Part shown: positions 56,449 through 63,447 of the stretch, piece by piece
Position numbering within the stretch: the stretch's first letter is position 1
Layout of the letters: each line of letters starts with the position of its first letter
Assembly (NCBI GenBank): GCA_029975475.1
Contig: JARKPB010000008.1
Span: forward strand, 1,240,001 to 1,304,000
DNA length: 64,000 nucleotides
Direction of reading: 5' to 3'
Origin: Anaerolineaceae bacterium
GTDB lineage: Bacteria; Chloroflexota; Anaerolineae; Anaerolineales; Anaerolineaceae
Made by a program: the position numbers and the translations under genes
The notes under the pieces: generated by a model
The model's input: only the letters and a program-made list of their open reading frames with translations
Database searches by the model: none
What the model was told of the DNA's origin: nothing

Positions 56449-57135
56449 ATGACGCGCGAAACCCTCGACCGACAATTGCATCACATCCAGGATGAGATCT
56501 TGCTGCTGGGCAGCTTGGTGGAACAGGCGATGCTGAACGCTGTTCAAAGCCTGAAAAACCGCGACCGGGCCGCGGCCCATAAAATTTACCAGGCTGACCA
56601 GGACATCAACGAAAAACGCTTCGCGATTGAAAACGCGATCCTGATTTTGATGGCCACCCAGCAGCCGATGGCCCGCGACCTGCGCATGCTGGCTGCCATG
56701 CTGGAGGTCAACACCGAACTGGAGCGTATGGGCGATTACGCCAAAGGGATCGCCAAGGTTACCCAGCGGCTGGGGGATGTGGAGATTAAAATCCCGATTC
56801 AAGAAATCGAACAGATGGCTTCAATCGCCACTTCCATGCTTCACCGCGCCCTGGGTTGTTTTATCAGTGAAAATGCGATGGTCGCTTCCCAGATCCCGGC
56901 AGAAGACGATCAGGTTGACCGCCTGTACGAAGAAATTTACCGCCAGATCGTGCATACCATGATCGAAAATCCCGACTTGATTGACCACACCAACCTCTTG
57001 CTGTGGGTGGCGCACAACCTGGAGCGCATGGCGGACCGGGTCACCAATATTTGCGAAAGGACAGTTTTCATTAACACTGGCGAGTTGCTGGAAATGGATA
57101 CCACGGATGACGAAGAGGAATTAGATTCGGAGTAA
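56449..57135 (+). CDS. phoU: Phosphate regulator PhoU
   Basis: 228 residues of two three-helix repeats with the metal-binding E-x-x-x-D-type patterns (ELERMGDYAKGIAKV, then NLERMADRVTNICERT). PhoU links Pst transport to PhoR signalling and restrains phosphate uptake. The message ends at a terminator 8 bases downstream. Confidence 0.96.
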   Translation: MTRETLDRQLHHIQDEILLLGSLVEQAMLNAVQSLKNRDRAAAHKIYQADQDINEKRFAIENAILILMATQQPMARDLRMLAAMLEVNTELERMGDYAKGIAKVTQRLGDVEIKIPIQEIEQMASIATSMLHRALGCFISENAMVASQIPAEDDQVDRLYEEIYRQIVHTMIENPDLIDHTNLLLWVAHNLERMADRVTNICERTVFINTGELLEMDTTDDEEELDSE

Positions 57136-57142
57136 ACAGCAT

Positions 57143-57170
57143 AAATCCACCTTTTCAGGTGGATTTTTAT
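57143..57170 (+). terminator. Terminator of the pst operon
   Basis: AAATCCACC / GGTGGATTT with a 6-base loop, followed by TTATTTG. Ends the pst-phoU message. Confidence 0.85.
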
Positions 57171-57180
57171 TTGCTCAGGA

Positions 57181-57189
57181 TGCTATAAT
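57181..57189 (+). promoter_or_regulatory. Extended -10 promoter of the polyphosphate-related operon
   Basis: TGCTATAAT is an exact extended -10 (TGn-TATAAT), 38 bases before the first start. No clear -35 or Pho box near it, so this operon may be expressed independently of phosphate. Confidence 0.6.
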
Positions 57190-57227
57190 TTTGTTGTCTG
57201 TACCATTCTGAATTCAGGGAGATGCCT

Positions 57228-57959
57228 GTGTTAATTCCGAATCCATACAAAGGTAAATTGATCGTTGTTGAGGGCATTGATGGCTCCGGCAAATCGACTC
57301 AGATTGACCTGTTGTACAAATGGCTGCTGGCTCAGGGAAAATCGGTTTACTTTTCTGAATGGAATTCTTCAAACCTGGTAAAAAGCACCACCCGCCAGGG
57401 GAAAAAAGAAAAAATGTTTACCCCGACGACCTTCAGCCTGCTGCAGGCCACCGATTTTGCTGACCGCTGGGAAAACCATATTCTCCCGATGCTGAAAGCC
57501 GGAGTGATTGTCCTGGCTGACCGCTACGCTTTTACCGGTTTCGCCCGCGACGTCGCCCGCGGGGTTGACCCGGCCTGGGTGCGCAATCTGTATTCCTTCG
57601 CGCTGCAGCCCGACCTGGCCTTTTATTTCAAGGTTCCGCTGGATGTGGCGGTCGAGCGCATCCTGAGCGCGCGGACGAACCTGAAATACTACGAAGCCGG
57701 TATGGATCTGGGTCTGTCGGATAACAAGGTTACCAGTTTCCGTTTGTTTCAGCAAAGAATCATCAACGAATATGACAAAATGGTGGATGAACTCGGTCTG
57801 GTTGTCGTGGACGGGACCATGCCGGTTCAAAAGCAGCAAAAGGTCGTGCGCCGGGAGGTCAACCGCATCCTGGAAGGCTGGGAAGGCCTGCCCAATCCGC
57901 TCGCTCCTCGCCCCGCCCGCCGCCGAGCCGCCGCTGGCAAGCAGAATGTCGAGGAGTAA
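57228..57959 (+). CDS. Thymidylate-kinase-like P-loop protein 1
   Basis: 243 residues from GTG at 57228; ATG at 57222 directly abuts AGGGAG and so cannot use it, while GTG is at correct spacing. Full P-loop EGIDGSGKSTQ, LADRYAFTGFARDVARG (DRY motif), LDVAVERIL. True dTMP kinases have an AYQ-type motif after DR(Y/H); here that position reads FARDVARG, so dTMP is doubtful. A basic tail (RPARRRAAAG) is present. First of a four-gene operon with a paralogue, CHAD and HD genes. Annotated by most as dTMP kinase; substrate uncertain. Confidence 0.85.
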   Translation: MLIPNPYKGKLIVVEGIDGSGKSTQIDLLYKWLLAQGKSVYFSEWNSSNLVKSTTRQGKKEKMFTPTTFSLLQATDFADRWENHILPMLKAGVIVLADRYAFTGFARDVARGVDPAWVRNLYSFALQPDLAFYFKVPLDVAVERILSARTNLKYYEAGMDLGLSDNKVTSFRLFQQRIINEYDKMVDELGLVVVDGTMPVQKQQKVVRREVNRILEGWEGLPNPLAPRPARRRAAAGKQNVEE

Positions 57960-57962
57960 ACC

Positions 57963-58661
57963 ATGAGCAAACCTGAATTTTACGGCGCTGGGTTTCCCTA
58001 CCGCAAGATAAAAGACCTGAGCGGGAAATTAATTGTCCTGGAAGGCACAGACGGGGTCGGACGTTCCACCCAGGTTGGACTGCTGCGCAAATGGCTGGAG
58101 GATGAAGGCTTCGCGGTTACCGACACAGGGCTTCGGCGCTCTCCGCTTTGTAATGAGGGGCTGGAAAGCGCGAAAAACGGGCACACCTTTAGCCCGCTGA
58201 CGATGAGCCTGTTTTACGCCACTGATTTTGCTGACCGGCTGGAAAATCAGATCATCCCGGCTTTAAAAGCGGGTTTTATTGTCCTGTCTGACCGTTATTT
58301 TTATTCAATCATCGCGCGGAATGTGGTGCGCGGCGCCGATCCATTGCGCGAACGGCACATTTACGGCTTCGCGCTGAAACCGGACATTGTGATTTATCTC
58401 AAGACCGATGTGCCCACCCTGGTATCGCGGATGGTTCAGGGGCGCGGCTTTAATTTCTGGGAATCCGGTATGGATATTCGCTGCGCTGATAATCTTTATG
58501 ACAGTTTTTGCGCTTACCAGAAAGCCTTGTTAGAAGAATTTGACCGCATGGCGGTCGAATATAACTTCACGATTGTGAACGCCAGTAAAACCACCAACGA
58601 AGTGTTCAATGACCTCAAGCGTAAAATCAGACCGCTGCTGGTAAAAGAGGGAACCGGATGA
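57963..58661 (+). CDS. Thymidylate-kinase-like P-loop protein 2, with altered P-loop
   Basis: 232 residues, a diverged paralogue of the preceding gene (shared FAL-PD, LSDRYFYSIIARNVVRG, FWESGMD like YYEAGMD). The P-loop reads GTDGVGRST: the invariant Lys is Arg34 (codon CGT, 58062-58064). Lysine-to-arginine usually kills or changes NTP hydrolysis, so it may be regulatory or use another donor. The rest of the fold is intact and the gene is not otherwise damaged. Three bases after the first. Confidence 0.85.
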   Translation: MSKPEFYGAGFPYRKIKDLSGKLIVLEGTDGVGRSTQVGLLRKWLEDEGFAVTDTGLRRSPLCNEGLESAKNGHTFSPLTMSLFYATDFADRLENQIIPALKAGFIVLSDRYFYSIIARNVVRGADPLRERHIYGFALKPDIVIYLKTDVPTLVSRMVQGRGFNFWESGMDIRCADNLYDSFCAYQKALLEEFDRMAVEYNFTIVNASKTTNEVFNDLKRKIRPLLVKEGTG

Positions 58662-59695
58662 CAGTCAAAGGCAGCCGGGACGCGATTGTTTGTTCCTTTG
58701 CGGCGCAGGCGGCGCTGGTGCAGCTGCGGCGCTTGACCGCGGAAATCGCTGCCGTTCGGTTGAATGAGGACCTCGAAGCGATCCACCGCAGCAGGGTGGC
58801 GTCCCGCCGGTTGAGGGCGGTGCTGGAAGTCTTTCAGGACGTTTTTAACAAGAAAAAGGTCCTGCGCTGGTTAAAGCAGGTACGCTCGATTACCCGATCC
58901 CTGGGAGCGGCCAGGGACACGGATGTTCAAATCTTATTCCTCGAGGAGCAGCTGAACAGCCAGCCGGAGCCTGTGGTTCACTGGGCGGTCAAGCGCCTTC
59001 ATTTGCGCTGGCGGCAGAAGCGCGCCAAACTTCAGAAAAAAGTCCTGAAAGCGCTGGATGCGTTTGAACACTCTGAAGCCGCCATCGAAATGGCCACGGA
59101 ATTTTCGCCGTACACCATTTACCCCGCGCCCGGTTCCCCCGGCGAATCCAGGGTAATGCGTTCACTGGCCCGCGAACAAATTATCGAGCGCCTGAACGCG
59201 TTTCTGAGTCTGCAAGACTGTCTGGAACATCCAGAAGACCAGGTAAGGCTGCACGCCATGCGGATCGCGGGGAAAAAACTGCGCTACACGATCGAGATTT
59301 TTAGCCCGCTGTTTTCCGAAGAAAGTTCGGGACGATGGCTGACAGAGTTGAAACAGATCCAGGACATCCTTGGCAGTCTGCATGACCTGGACGTGTGGCA
59401 GCACATGCTGCCGCAGGCGATGGAACGAGAAGCGCGCTGGACGGAGCGTTTTTTTGGGACCAACCGGCCGTTTATCCGCATACAAAAAGGCGTTTCCATA
59501 TTTCAGGAAGCGCTGCTGCGCCAGCGTGAGAGTCAGTTCGCTGAATTTCGGAAGAGATGGCAAAAAGAGAAAACACAGGCTCTGTGGCGGGAAATTGAAT
59601 CAGCCGCGACAGGCTTGATCCCAGAAGATGAGGTAAAGTCGGACGATGACGAAACAGGAACCAACCCGGACGGAGAAAACAAGCCATTCTCTTGA
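58658..59695 (+). CDS. CHAD domain protein
   Basis: 345 residues. Conserved histidine/arginine helical pattern: IHRSRVASRRLRAVLEVFQD, RSITRSLGAARDTDVQILFL, then HAMRIAGKKLRYTIEIF and ELKQIQDILGSLHDLDVW. CHAD domains bind polyphosphate through basic surfaces. The start ATGA overlaps the upstream stop. No CYTH domain is attached, although CHAD often occurs with one. Confidence 0.93.
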   Translation: MTVKGSRDAIVCSFAAQAALVQLRRLTAEIAAVRLNEDLEAIHRSRVASRRLRAVLEVFQDVFNKKKVLRWLKQVRSITRSLGAARDTDVQILFLEEQLNSQPEPVVHWAVKRLHLRWRQKRAKLQKKVLKALDAFEHSEAAIEMATEFSPYTIYPAPGSPGESRVMRSLAREQIIERLNAFLSLQDCLEHPEDQVRLHAMRIAGKKLRYTIEIFSPLFSEESSGRWLTELKQIQDILGSLHDLDVWQHMLPQAMEREARWTERFFGTNRPFIRIQKGVSIFQEALLRQRESQFAEFRKRWQKEKTQALWREIESAATGLIPEDEVKSDDDETGTNPDGENKPFS

Positions 59696-60269
59696 TGAAA
59701 TCCAGCAGCTGGTGACCGAAAAAATTGGCGGGGACGCGCACACAGTCCAGGTGGTGCGGTTCAGCCTGATGCTGTTTGACCAGCTGGTGCCCATCCACGG
59801 CCTCGATCAGCAGGCTCGTGGTTACCTTGAAGCGGCGGCCTGGCTGCACGACATTGGCTACGCGGAAGGGTATAAAGGGCACCACAAAAAGGCGCTTGAA
59901 TTTATCCTGAACACGCCCGAACTATCACTGGATAACAAAGAGCGCCTGATCATCGGCTCCATCGCCCGTTATCACCGCAAGGCGCTGCCCTCTGTTGCTC
60001 ACGATCATTTCGCAGCCCTCAGCCCGGTCGAACGTCAGCTGGTGTCCCGTCTGGCCGCGCTGCTGCGCATCGCCGACGGTCTGGATCGAACTCACCAGGG
60101 AAAAATCGACAACTTCCGGGTTGAAATTGGCGAGAAAAAGGTAATCCTGTACTGCGAAGCAGAAGGAAGCGCCCTGCTGGAGGAAGATACCGCCTTGAAA
60201 AAGGCTGACCTGTTTGAAAAGACCTTCAGGCGTAAACTAAAAATCCGCTGGGAAAAAGCGTCAGACTAG
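59646..60269 (+). CDS. Stand-alone HD domain like the C-terminus of Ppx/GppA
   Basis: 207 residues. It matches the HD domain III of exopolyphosphatase Ppx/GppA: HTVQVVRFSLMLFDQL, AAWLHDIGYAEGYKGHHKKA (HD pair), IGSIARYHRKALPSVAHDHF and LLRIADGLDRTHQGKIDNF. It lacks the actin-like catalytic half of Ppx. It begins 50 bases inside the CHAD frame; the first ~28 residues are unusual, so a later start is possible. Last gene of the operon. Role in polyphosphate or nucleotide signalling is inferred. Confidence 0.85.
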   Translation: MTKQEPTRTEKTSHSLDEIQQLVTEKIGGDAHTVQVVRFSLMLFDQLVPIHGLDQQARGYLEAAAWLHDIGYAEGYKGHHKKALEFILNTPELSLDNKERLIIGSIARYHRKALPSVAHDHFAALSPVERQLVSRLAALLRIADGLDRTHQGKIDNFRVEIGEKKVILYCEAEGSALLEEDTALKKADLFEKTFRRKLKIRWEKASD

Positions 60270-61467: not shown

Positions 61468-63066
61468 TCAAATCTTGGGCCGGGGATCTGCTTTGCTTTT
61501 GGCATCTTTGCTGAGATACATGGCGCGGTCCGCTTCCGCAATGGCTTCTTCCAGGCTATTCTGGACCGGGGCGACGCCGAATGAAAAGCCCAGCGGAAAT
61601 GCCGTATACAGGTCAGCGCATTGTTTTTGAATTCGGTCAATGATCAAAACAACCTCATCCATTTTTGGTTGCTGAGTGTTCTGCGTGCTCAAGAGAAGCA
61701 CAAATTCATCGCCCCCATACCGGATCACCAGATCATTCTGGCGGAGGTTGGCTTTAACCAGCCGGGTGAAATCTTTCAAAACCTGATCGCCAAACTGGTG
61801 CCCAAAGCGGTCATTAATATTCTTAAATTCGTCAAGATCCACCATGACCACATACCCGTAATTTTGCTGCTCTACCTCGGATAAAATATTGCGATTCAAC
61901 GCGCCGGTAAGCGGATCCAGGTTTTTCATCCGCTGCAGGTTCAGGTTCTGGAACAACAGCTGGTTGTAATCCAGGAGTAATTGAACCCCGACCATCATGA
62001 CGGTGAAGATAAACGCGGTGGGGATCATGGTTGGCCAGGTCAACCTGAGAGGTATTGAGATAAGCAAAAGCATGATGGATAGTAACAATAATGTGGCCGG
62101 GAAGAGCAGCCAGGTCGGTCTTTCCTTGCGAAAAAGGATCAAACCGACCACAATCGTGAGAAAAATCGTTAAGCCCGTGTTGGTATAGTTCTGAACCACA
62201 GCGATCGTTTTGATATCCGAAGAGAGGAGCAGGGCAATCACCGCGGCCAGGGTATACAAAGACAGCCAGCGGCCGATGCGGATTTTCTGCCAGTACTGCA
62301 GTTCAATTCCCCACAGCAGCCAAAGCGCTGCCAGGTATCCTGAAATAAGAAAAACCTTCTTCGCCCACAGGAATGTCGCCACCGTGCCCGTGGTCAGGCG
62401 AAAAGGCAGATCCTGCAAGAAGACGATGCCGAAGATCAGAGCCAGACCGATAAACAATTCTGGACTTTTTCTCTTCTTGCGGATAATCGACATGGCGATT
62501 AACACAAACCCGACTAGAACCCCTGCCCCGATGAGGGCGTTCGAGGTACCCGAATACATGGCATTTAACAACCCAACCCGGGCAGCGCAATCCTGATAGC
62601 GGCACAGGTAAGGGACGCTGTTAAAACCGTACCCGTAATAACGGCTGGCAATACGGACTTCCAGAAGATTTTCCGCCTGCAAGGGTTCGGGAAGCTGGAT
62701 TATCTGGATGTAATTCCAAAGATTGGCCGTCGGCTGGGAGAAATCACCGAGCCGGTAAATGAGACGATGATTCAAGCGAATTTCCAACGCGTTGCCCGAC
62801 ATGCGCGGGATCACCAGGGTATCCGCATCCACGCGGTTGAAAACCGCGCGCATTTCAAGGTCCTGCCGGTCTGGTTGAAACATCTCCACCCAGGGCATTT
62901 CGACCGATTTCCAGCTCGCGCCTTCTTTTACCTGCCATTGTTGTAGAGGTAAGCCAACTGGCTGGAGGGGGAAAACAAGGATAAGCAGTAAAATCAGGAA
63001 AAATAAGATTGCCAGTAAAACATAGGCAAAGCTCTTAACCGATACTTTGAAAGCGTTGCTCATCAT
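61468..63066 (-). CDS. Membrane diguanylate cyclase (GGDEF)
   Basis: 532 residues. An N-terminal membrane helix (about 12-34) and an extracytoplasmic beta-rich domain (35-180), then seven membrane helices (about 190-375) as in 7TMR-DISM sensors, and a C-terminal GGDEF domain with DPLTGALNR and YGGDEF (about 450-455), which makes cyclic di-GMP. The I-site RxxD is not obvious. The cue is unknown. An ATG pair at 63066/63063 gives the start. Confidence 0.93.
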   Translation of the reverse strand: MMSNAFKVSVKSFAYVLLAILFFLILLLILVFPLQPVGLPLQQWQVKEGASWKSVEMPWVEMFQPDRQDLEMRAVFNRVDADTLVIPRMSGNALEIRLNHRLIYRLGDFSQPTANLWNYIQIIQLPEPLQAENLLEVRIASRYYGYGFNSVPYLCRYQDCAARVGLLNAMYSGTSNALIGAGVLVGFVLIAMSIIRKKRKSPELFIGLALIFGIVFLQDLPFRLTTGTVATFLWAKKVFLISGYLAALWLLWGIELQYWQKIRIGRWLSLYTLAAVIALLLSSDIKTIAVVQNYTNTGLTIFLTIVVGLILFRKERPTWLLFPATLLLLSIMLLLISIPLRLTWPTMIPTAFIFTVMMVGVQLLLDYNQLLFQNLNLQRMKNLDPLTGALNRNILSEVEQQNYGYVVMVDLDEFKNINDRFGHQFGDQVLKDFTRLVKANLRQNDLVIRYGGDEFVLLLSTQNTQQPKMDEVVLIIDRIQKQCADLYTAFPLGFSFGVAPVQNSLEEAIAEADRAMYLSKDAKSKADPRPKI

Positions 63067-63375: not shown

Positions 63376-63447
63376 TGCCCCCAAGGGGACTCGAACCCCT
63401 GTTATAGCCTTGAAAGGGCTGTGTCCTAACCGCTAGACCATGGGGGC
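63376..63447 (-). tRNA. tRNA-Glu (anticodon UUC)
   Basis: 72 bases on the minus strand. Acceptor stem GCCCCCA / TGGGGGC, D arm TCTAGCGGTTAGGA, anticodon loop CTTTCAA giving UUC, T arm AGGGGTTCGAGTCCCCT, discriminator A. CCA is not encoded. Fold is complete. Confidence 0.95.

Follow-up and report, generated by a model that had tools for sequence, protein, structure and literature searches.

What does a bacterium do with two thymidylate kinase (TMK)-like proteins encoded in tandem, directly beside its phosphate import genes and followed by two genes that point to polyphosphate? The question is raised by an operon on the forward strand of an Anaerolineaceae contig, at positions 57228-60269 of the 64,000-nucleotide stretch analysed here (the window). 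It lies downstream of pst-phoU and holds four ORFs, for P1, P2, a CHAD protein and an HD protein. We consider it very probable, judging from sequence, that P1 and P2 together act as the TMK-like kind of polyphosphate kinase described from archaea (PPK3), which would substitute for PPK1 in this organism. The features of the region are as follows.

53449, 54405 and 55639, upstream of phoU: ORFs read as pstC, pstA and pstB, respectively.
56449 to 57135, forward strand: phoU, the last gene of the pst-phoU operon (Pfam PhoU, 5e-40).
57143 to 57166, forward strand: site resembling an intrinsic terminator, separating phoU from the P1 operon (10-pair stem, 4-nt loop, T-run).
57181 to 57189, forward strand: putative promoter, extended -10 TGCTATAAT, read from the sequence.
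57217 to 57221, forward strand: ribosome-binding site GGGAG, read from the sequence, preceding the GTG at 57228.
57228 to 57959, forward strand: P1, TMK-like kinase of PPK3 type, putatively catalytic (Walker A GIDGSGKST, EWNSS, DRYxxTxxARD).
57963 to 58661, forward strand: P2, TMK-like, putative second subunit of the pair (Walker A GTDGVGRST, with Arg in place of Lys).
58658 to 59695, forward strand: CHAD protein, with a polyphosphate-binding domain (Pfam CHAD, 6e-48).
59646 to 60269, forward strand: stand-alone Ppx/GppA domain III (HD) protein (Pfam PF21447, 5e-16).

The four-gene operon beside pst-phoU that the first-pass annotation described is confirmed, with ORFs that nearly touch or overlap (a 3 nt gap between P1 and P2, then overlaps of 4 nt between P2 and CHAD and 50 nt between CHAD and HD). 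Its start for P1 also stands: of the two candidates, ATG at 57222 and GTG at 57228, the latter is preferred because GGGAG ends 6 nt before it. The terminator and extended -10 that it placed after phoU are both visible, but the stem is weak evidence when taken alone, since the region holds 8 terminator-like sites against 5.5 expected from shuffles, and the -10, though visible by eye, was not flagged by a two-hexamer promoter scan. A search of Rfam gave tRNA as the sole match. The arrangement of the operon is not due to chance, because the order P1-P2-CHAD is found again in all 13 family relatives having the pair (in 10 of them phoU lies immediately upstream). The cluster is thus conserved in relatives, as had been predicted, but it is no speciality of the Chloroflexota and has a relative in Sulfolobus. 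At all the best loci (80/80), which span about 20 phylum-level groups, P2 directly follows P1. Among the loci analysed, two (L103/L062 and L118/L063) are apparently contigs entered twice, their lengths being equal. A Chloroflexota-only system was rejected, since other groups supply most of these 80 named loci, every one of which has the pair. The P1-P2 tandem is ancient and cross-domain, occurring in bacteria and archaea.

The two downstream genes are of particular interest. The CHAD protein scores 164 bits against PF05235 (cut-off 25.6), and the HD protein matches Ppx-GppA_III (PF21447, 5e-16) and HD (2.7e-5) with no Ppx catalytic domain (PF02541) found in the Pfam search. The fourth gene was accordingly rejected as an ordinary Ppx and is, as first proposed, a copy of the C-terminal Ppx/GppA domain only; it is 30% identical to residues 317-515 of the 516 in a full Ppx that adjoins the pair at locus L098. 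Ppx, CHAD, HD or PPK2 genes lie near the pair at 53/80 named loci, 15/28 loci of the class and 15/15 further loci, compared with 0/20 TMK-type control loci of the class (two of which, L181 and L184, are divergent TMK-like proteins and not plain TMKs). No such gene was seen near the pair at 27/80 named and 13/28 class loci, many of them on short contigs. The linkage is not universal in the class loci: ten neighbour genes tested at unlinked-looking loci comprised two PPK2 genes and others that were of MFS, DUF362, ParB, helicase, GDPD, URO-D or mutase type or were unmatched.

PPK1 usually serves as the marker for polyphosphate synthesis, and PPK2 is a P-loop kinase that works with polyphosphate. 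The genome that holds the window has two PPK2s and one CHAD protein (the only CHAD match found), and a search of it found no match to PF02503 (PPK1) or PF02541 (full Ppx). Across 199 genomes of the class, in raw counts uncontrolled for genome size or lifestyle, PPK2 and CHAD are nearly confined to genomes that have PPK1 or the P1-P2 pair. PPK2 is present in 18/23 genomes with the pair only, 73/81 with PPK1 only, 6/6 with both and 3/89 with neither; the corresponding figures for CHAD are 17/23, 66/81, 5/6 and 2/89. Among the 25 genomes of the bacterium's own family, PPK1 is found in 9/11 without the pair versus 3/14 with it (Fisher p 0.005), and PPK2 in 9/11 with the pair only. In one genus (g64), two species (G071, G171) carry PPK1 and the third (G184) carries the pair in its place. 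In the named set, only 4/39 pair-bearing genomes have a PPK1 that was found, and some of these genomes may be incomplete. PPK1 and the pair are both kept in the 3/14 family genomes and in 6/29 pair-bearing genomes of the class, which counts against the proposed reading; of the 23 pair-only genomes, 5 are without PPK2 and 6 without CHAD, which also counts against it.

PPK1 would share its function with the pair, which tends to replace it, yet neither P1 nor P2 matches PF02503 in a Pfam search. Our analysis shows which genes are present, their conservation, pairing and co-occurrence and the Lys/Arg split; the substrate, the direction of the reaction, the heteromer and the roles of P2, CHAD and HD we infer as follows. 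P1 would be the catalytic P-loop subunit, exchanging phosphate between Mg-ATP/ADP and the terminus of a polyphosphate chain that would sit where TMKs hold dTMP; P2 would be a partner that by itself transfers little or no phosphate, holding the chain or tuning P1. The CHAD protein may dock the enzyme to polyphosphate, and the lone Ppx domain-III/HD protein could be a polyphosphate-binding or phosphohydrolase accessory. The operon would in this way store phosphate imported by the adjacent Pst system, and the two PPK2 enzymes encoded elsewhere in the genome would spend the polymer. The first-pass annotation had envisaged a polyphosphate-sensing or polyphosphate-using nucleotide kinase system. The link of the operon to polyphosphate holds, but the role with the best support is polyphosphate synthesis or mobilisation in place of PPK1. 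That P1 and P2 phosphorylate NMPs or NDPs with polyphosphate, no polymer being made in vivo, is unlikely: they have the same fold class as NMP kinases, they are linked to polyphosphate genes and a PPK2-like chemistry would fit too, but PPK2s could already serve in 24/29 pair genomes of the class, and a pair that only consumed polyphosphate would leave 23 pair-only genomes without a PPK1-type maker. PPK2 (PF03976) co-occurs with the pair and is sometimes adjacent to it (L040; G131); both are P-loop kinases, but a PF03976 match is absent from P1 and P2 in the Pfam search.

A second dTMP kinase, or another NMP kinase in a coincidental polyphosphate operon, is what the databases would suggest. Both proteins exceed the cut-off of Pfam PF02223 (Thymidylate_kin; P1 1e-23, P2 3.5e-19), and P1 passes that of the NCBIfam dTMP kinase TIGR00041 (95.0 against 83.25 bits). 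P2 does not (74.2); the predicted misleading annotation thus holds at least for P1. The fold, the P-loop and DRY are common to TMKs and the pair, and the predicted folds of P1 and P2 are TMK folds (for P1, Z is about 22-24 to other TMKs and 27 to S. tokodaii ST1543). TMK-type chains are among the 50 matches listed for P1 by VIA-align; PPK2 is not, which excludes nothing. P1 and P2 are nevertheless not the cell's ordinary dTMP kinase, because an ordinary tmk is present elsewhere in the genome (C17:13035) and motifs with roles at the dTMP site have been replaced. REPGGT (or EPT/EPS) and DRY/F..S..AYQ are found in neither protein: the ordinary TMK of this genome reads REPGGT and DRYADSTLAYQ, at which places P1 has EWNSS and DRYAFTGFARD, and the family-wide motifs are EWNSS and DRY.(Y/F)T.FARD in P1 and GL.RS and DRY in P2. 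The lack of an AYQ-type motif after DRY had been pointed out earlier, along with the check for a true tmk; the replacement of REPGGT is added here. In a tree, P1 (64 rows), P2 (64) and TMK (34) are each set off by a branch of their own (SH-aLRT 79, 99 and 91, that of P1 being only 79%), so the TMK rows stand apart from the 128 P1/P2 rows. The PDB entries for ST1543 are titled dTMP kinase, but no title among the four listed mentions TMP, and one gives the protein as ADP-bound. With other neighbours (the 0/20 above) and a tandem arrangement as further differences from TMKs, a plain dTMP kinase was rejected, and we regard this explanation as very improbable.

Hofmann et al. (JBC 2026, 302:111283; preprint 10.1101/2024.08.28.610084; cited in PMC13318637 and PMC11677633) reportedly found a polyphosphate kinase of a distinct family in Sulfolobus, where Saci_2018 is ppx (PMC7831078). 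The P1 of the window is 46% identical to ST1543 (1e-57 in a PDB search) and thus kin to the TMK-like gene that Sulfolobus has in its ppx operon. Ten genomes, which we took as Sulfolobales, have a P1 with 67-100% identity to ST1543; in them P1-P2 come after a ppx homologue and before a CHAD-sized ORF, and all ten rows fall on the P1 side of the tree. P1 and P2 are, as we read them, the bacterial form of this tandem pair. The published Sulfolobus PPK3 is presumably the P1/P2-type gene of the ppx operon, going by operon position. PPK3 loci share with the window a linkage to ppx/CHAD genes (here the CHAD and Ppx domain III genes that come straight after P2), and the bacterial operon is distinguished by its pst-phoU context and the lone Ppx domain III. 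The family is therefore probably already known as PPK3. Among the matches listed in literature searches, Saci_2019, Saci_2020 and the word Anaerolineae did not appear, and ST1543 occurred only in those titled on bacterial sequence types. What may be newer is the obligate pairing and the replacement of PPK1 in bacteria, though they cannot be called unpublished. We lean slightly towards a third way of making polyphosphate, present in both domains, by an obligate heteromer of a catalytic TMK-like subunit and a conserved partner with Arg for the Walker A Lys, which arose from one duplication, is carried as a unit through bacteria and archaea and replaces PPK1 in many bacteria with PPK2 and CHAD that otherwise have no known polyphosphate maker. 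Should the pair prove to be a polyphosphate kinase, many bacteria and archaea scored as polyphosphate-negative can make the polymer and many proteins named dTMP kinase are misnamed, and the source of polymer in PPK1-less organisms with PPK2 and CHAD would have a testable answer.

The two copies differ at the key lysine of Walker A. P1 has 51 columns conserved at at least 95% and an intact Walker A, with Lys in 130/131 alignment rows that have a letter there (the sole exception, L100 from G211, is a TMK-like protein placed in this set by mistake). P2 has Arg in 128/132 rows, as read from the alignment column (a simple pattern left 26 P2s unread and misread L121). Lys occurs in 4/10 Sulfolobales-type rows, whereas every P2 elsewhere, including the bacterial ones, has Arg. 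The loss of this Lys makes the pair unequal, and its presence in those four means that P2 is not dead everywhere. A regulatory ATPase that reads polyphosphate or ATP for Pst, and is no metabolic enzyme, would suit the altered Walker A of P2, the adjoining pst-phoU and the helix-turn-helix domains on CHAD proteins near the pair in several relatives, but is highly unlikely given the intact, strongly conserved P1 and the substitution pattern with PPK1. P1 and P2 as a polyphosphate kinase would probably form a heteromer in which a catalytic subunit is joined by a partner with an altered Walker A, an unusual kinase pair in that the second copy has its key lysine replaced in all rows outside some Sulfolobales-type genomes. 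A fused ORF was observed at one locus (L058).

The four-gene operon, in which the thymidylate-kinase-like tandem proteins P1 and P2 (the pair) precede a CHAD protein and a lone Ppx/GppA domain III protein (HD), is real, well conserved and open to functional interpretation. Its source genome (3.15 Mb; completeness 98.9%, contamination 3.8%) carries upstream of it genes read as pstC-pstA-pstB, then phoU, and the layout described in the first-pass annotation, a terminator-like site and an extended -10 (visible by eye between that site and P1) followed by four tightly packed genes, is all present. A convergent cruF-like gene marks the end of the operon; further on, a membrane protein resembling GGDEF diguanylate cyclase was read from the sequence (61468-63066, minus strand).

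Features flanking the operon in the window
57143-57166, terminator-like site between phoU and P1
60289-61071, minus strand, CruF-like carotenoid hydratase gene, scoring under NCBIfam cut-offs
63376-63447, minus strand, tRNA gene (Rfam)

A named-genome scan was queried with the P1 alignment alone; in all 80 of the best 80 loci P2 follows P1. Between them these loci represent a minimum of some 20 phylum-level names, among them Acidobacteria, Verrucomicrobia, Nitrososphaerota, Thermoplasmata, Poribacteria and Sumerlaeota. The two also occur together in 28/28 class loci found through P2, 15/15 family and order loci found through P1 and 10/10 Sulfolobales-type loci. In one of the class loci, L058:4260-5582, they form a single 440-codon frame, in a fragmentary, 70% complete assembly and with an apparently frameshifted C-terminus. 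The neighbourhood search proposed at first pass found CHAD next to the pair in 13/13 family relatives having it (weak in L097, truncated at the contig end in L091), with the lone HD protein after CHAD in 7. phoU lies directly upstream of the pair in 10 of the 13, 1.1 kb away in L096 and on the opposite side in L095; none was seen at the pair locus of L092.

Pfam assigns both proteins to the thymidylate kinase family, and P1 scores above the NCBIfam dTMP-kinase cut-off, P2 below it. dTMP kinase (TMK) was rejected as their identity: the true tmk whose existence had been in question is present on another contig (179 bits, with REPGGT and AYQG), P1 has EWNSS and DRYxxTxxARD in place of REPGGT/AYQ, much as the first-pass annotation had noticed, and in a tree of 162 rows (P1 64, P2 64, TMK 34; quick method, support by SH-aLRT only) P1, P2 and TMK rows each fall on one side of a branch, with SH-aLRT of 79, 99 and 91, the P1 value being modest. 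Topologies of the P1 and P2 parts resemble one another (the window family with Poribacteria; G026, another genome, with Ignavibacteria), and their pairwise identities correlate over 133 loci (r 0.83, species phylogeny not accounted for). The AlphaFold models (pLDDT 92 for P1, 91 for P2) both match the TMK-like S. tokodaii protein ST1543 best (identity ~45% and ~35%), TMKs coming next; the listed entries for ST1543 bear the title 'dTMP kinase', with ADP given as bound in one title and TMP mentioned in none.

The distribution of the usual polyphosphate maker, PPK1, bears on what the pair does. Among 199 class genomes the pair is found in 29, PPK1 in 87 and both in 6, all of one family (f32). PPK2 accompanies the pair alone in 18/23, PPK1 alone in 73/81, both in 6/6 and neither in 3/89; for CHAD the figures are 17/23, 66/81, 5/6 and 2/89. 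Fisher tests of pair-only genomes, which spread over 14 families (counted by eye), against those with neither give p ~1e-13 (PPK2) and ~3e-13 (CHAD), kinship ignored. Full or partial Ppx (PF02541) occurs in 2/29 class pair genomes (G058 and G086). Within the 25 own-family genomes PPK1 is present in 9/11 without the pair and 3/14 with it, PPK2 being found in 9/11 pair-only, 9/9 PPK1-only, 3/3 with both and 1/2 with neither; one genus (g64) has PPK1 in two species and the pair in a third. No PPK1 was seen in 35 of 39 named-set genomes searched, which were drawn from 40 of the 80 loci, include one Chloroflexi and are assemblies of unstated completeness. The window's genome has two PPK2 and one CHAD, and neither PPK1 nor Ppx found a match in it. 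Polyphosphate users and binders thus occur there and no known maker was found, unless, on this reading, the pair is one. A polyphosphate kinase function of the pair is likely.

Ppx, CHAD/HD or PPK2 lie near the pair in 53/80 named, 15/28 class and 15/15 family/order loci; the same profiles found none near 20 TMK-type loci of the class, of which two carry divergent TMK-like proteins. These counts span contigs of unequal length, and the class set has an advantage, since its own pair loci supplied the training data for the CHAD/HD profiles. Such neighbours uphold the earlier link to polyphosphate; a sensing or NMP-kinase role is less likely than that of a polyphosphate kinase replacing PPK1. Of nine CHAD proteins from class loci, all encoded near the pair and scanned for further domains, four have CYTH, five Ppx domain III (one slightly under its cut-off) and six a helix-turn-helix of the HTH_23/28 kind (not every one reaching the cut-off). 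In two order relatives CHAD and Ppx domain III share one protein. Because relatives' CHAD proteins carry Ppx domain III, CHAD and HD, two separate genes in the window, match domains that are fused elsewhere. Large CYTH + CHAD fusions adjoin the pair at L040:3900-6800, L048:10418-13132, L049:8722-11232 and L053:3120-4841, some adding helix-turn-helix and Ppx domain III/HD, with not every domain in each; these proteins are possibly polyphosphate-responsive regulators. Two consecutive PPK2 genes sit beside the pair in G131:C116 (L048) and G149:C109 (L040). A calcineurin-type phosphoesterase homologue, a candidate endopolyphosphatase, occurs in 5/15 family/order loci, and in all three inspected (Pfam on one) its gene lies between CHAD and HD. 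Homologues near the pair were also seen in L160, L161, L172 and L177.

Calcineurin-like phosphoesterase genes in family relatives
L085:1095-1835
L088:9024-9920
L095:8904-9665

Walker A was compared across 134 aligned P1-type rows and 133 P2-type ones. Its lysine is kept in 130/131 P1 rows with a letter at that column, the sole exception being a misfiled TMK-like protein (L100:6598-7263, from a family relative; Walker A GAGTTT), which is not P1, P2 or an ordinary TMK. P2 has arginine in 128/132 and lysine in four, all from Sulfolobales-type genomes (L233, L234, L236, L238); residues flanking that lysine are altered, and the other P2s seen differ. Exchange of this lysine for arginine usually abolishes catalysis in P-loop kinases. 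As the arginine is kept in nearly all P2s despite that usual loss, P2 is likely a phosphate-binding support for P1, and a heteromer with an altered partner is somewhat more likely than not. Columns conserved at >=95% number 51 in P1 (10 basic; 134 rows) and 22 in the TMK set (4 basic; 31 rows). Most simply, a polyphosphate chain would take the place of dTMP in P1, which would exchange phosphate between the end of that chain and ATP/ADP; P2 would bind phosphate and aid P1.

For archaea the catalytic family is very probably already in the literature; PPK3, the polyphosphate kinase of Hofmann et al., is reportedly a TMK family member. L234 is presumably S. acidocaldarius; in that case its pair would correspond to Saci_2019 (P1) and Saci_2020 (P2). 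A sample of 250 archaeal genomes was taken from the phylum to which a Nitrosopumilales record belongs; in 19 of them a P1 is at least 50% identical to ST1543. Ten of the 19, at 67-100% identity, are taken as Sulfolobales, and one of the ten, G449, contains ST1543 itself. Passages of PMC7831078 name ppx as Saci_2018 and state that, as of 2021, Crenarchaeota had no known PPK homologue; passages of PMC11677633 and PMC13318637 cite Hofmann et al. for the Sulfolobus polyphosphate-making enzyme. An archaeal CHAD from S. solfataricus binds polyphosphate (PMC6537752), and passages of PMC10892726 describe a cluster of SixA, PPX, 'dTMP kinase' and CHAD in biomining archaea, giving the 'dTMP kinase' no role there. 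All ten Sulfolobales-type loci have a ppx homologue upstream of P1-P2 (two frames make up the L238 copy, and the L240 copy stands 0.3 kb off). Downstream of P1-P2 comes an ORF of 199-216 codons, which the CHAD profile matches weakly in five; in L231 the Pfam CHAD score is 21.5 bits, under the cut-off of 25.6. Upstream of ppx in that same locus, the only one so tested, lies a histidine phosphatase gene.
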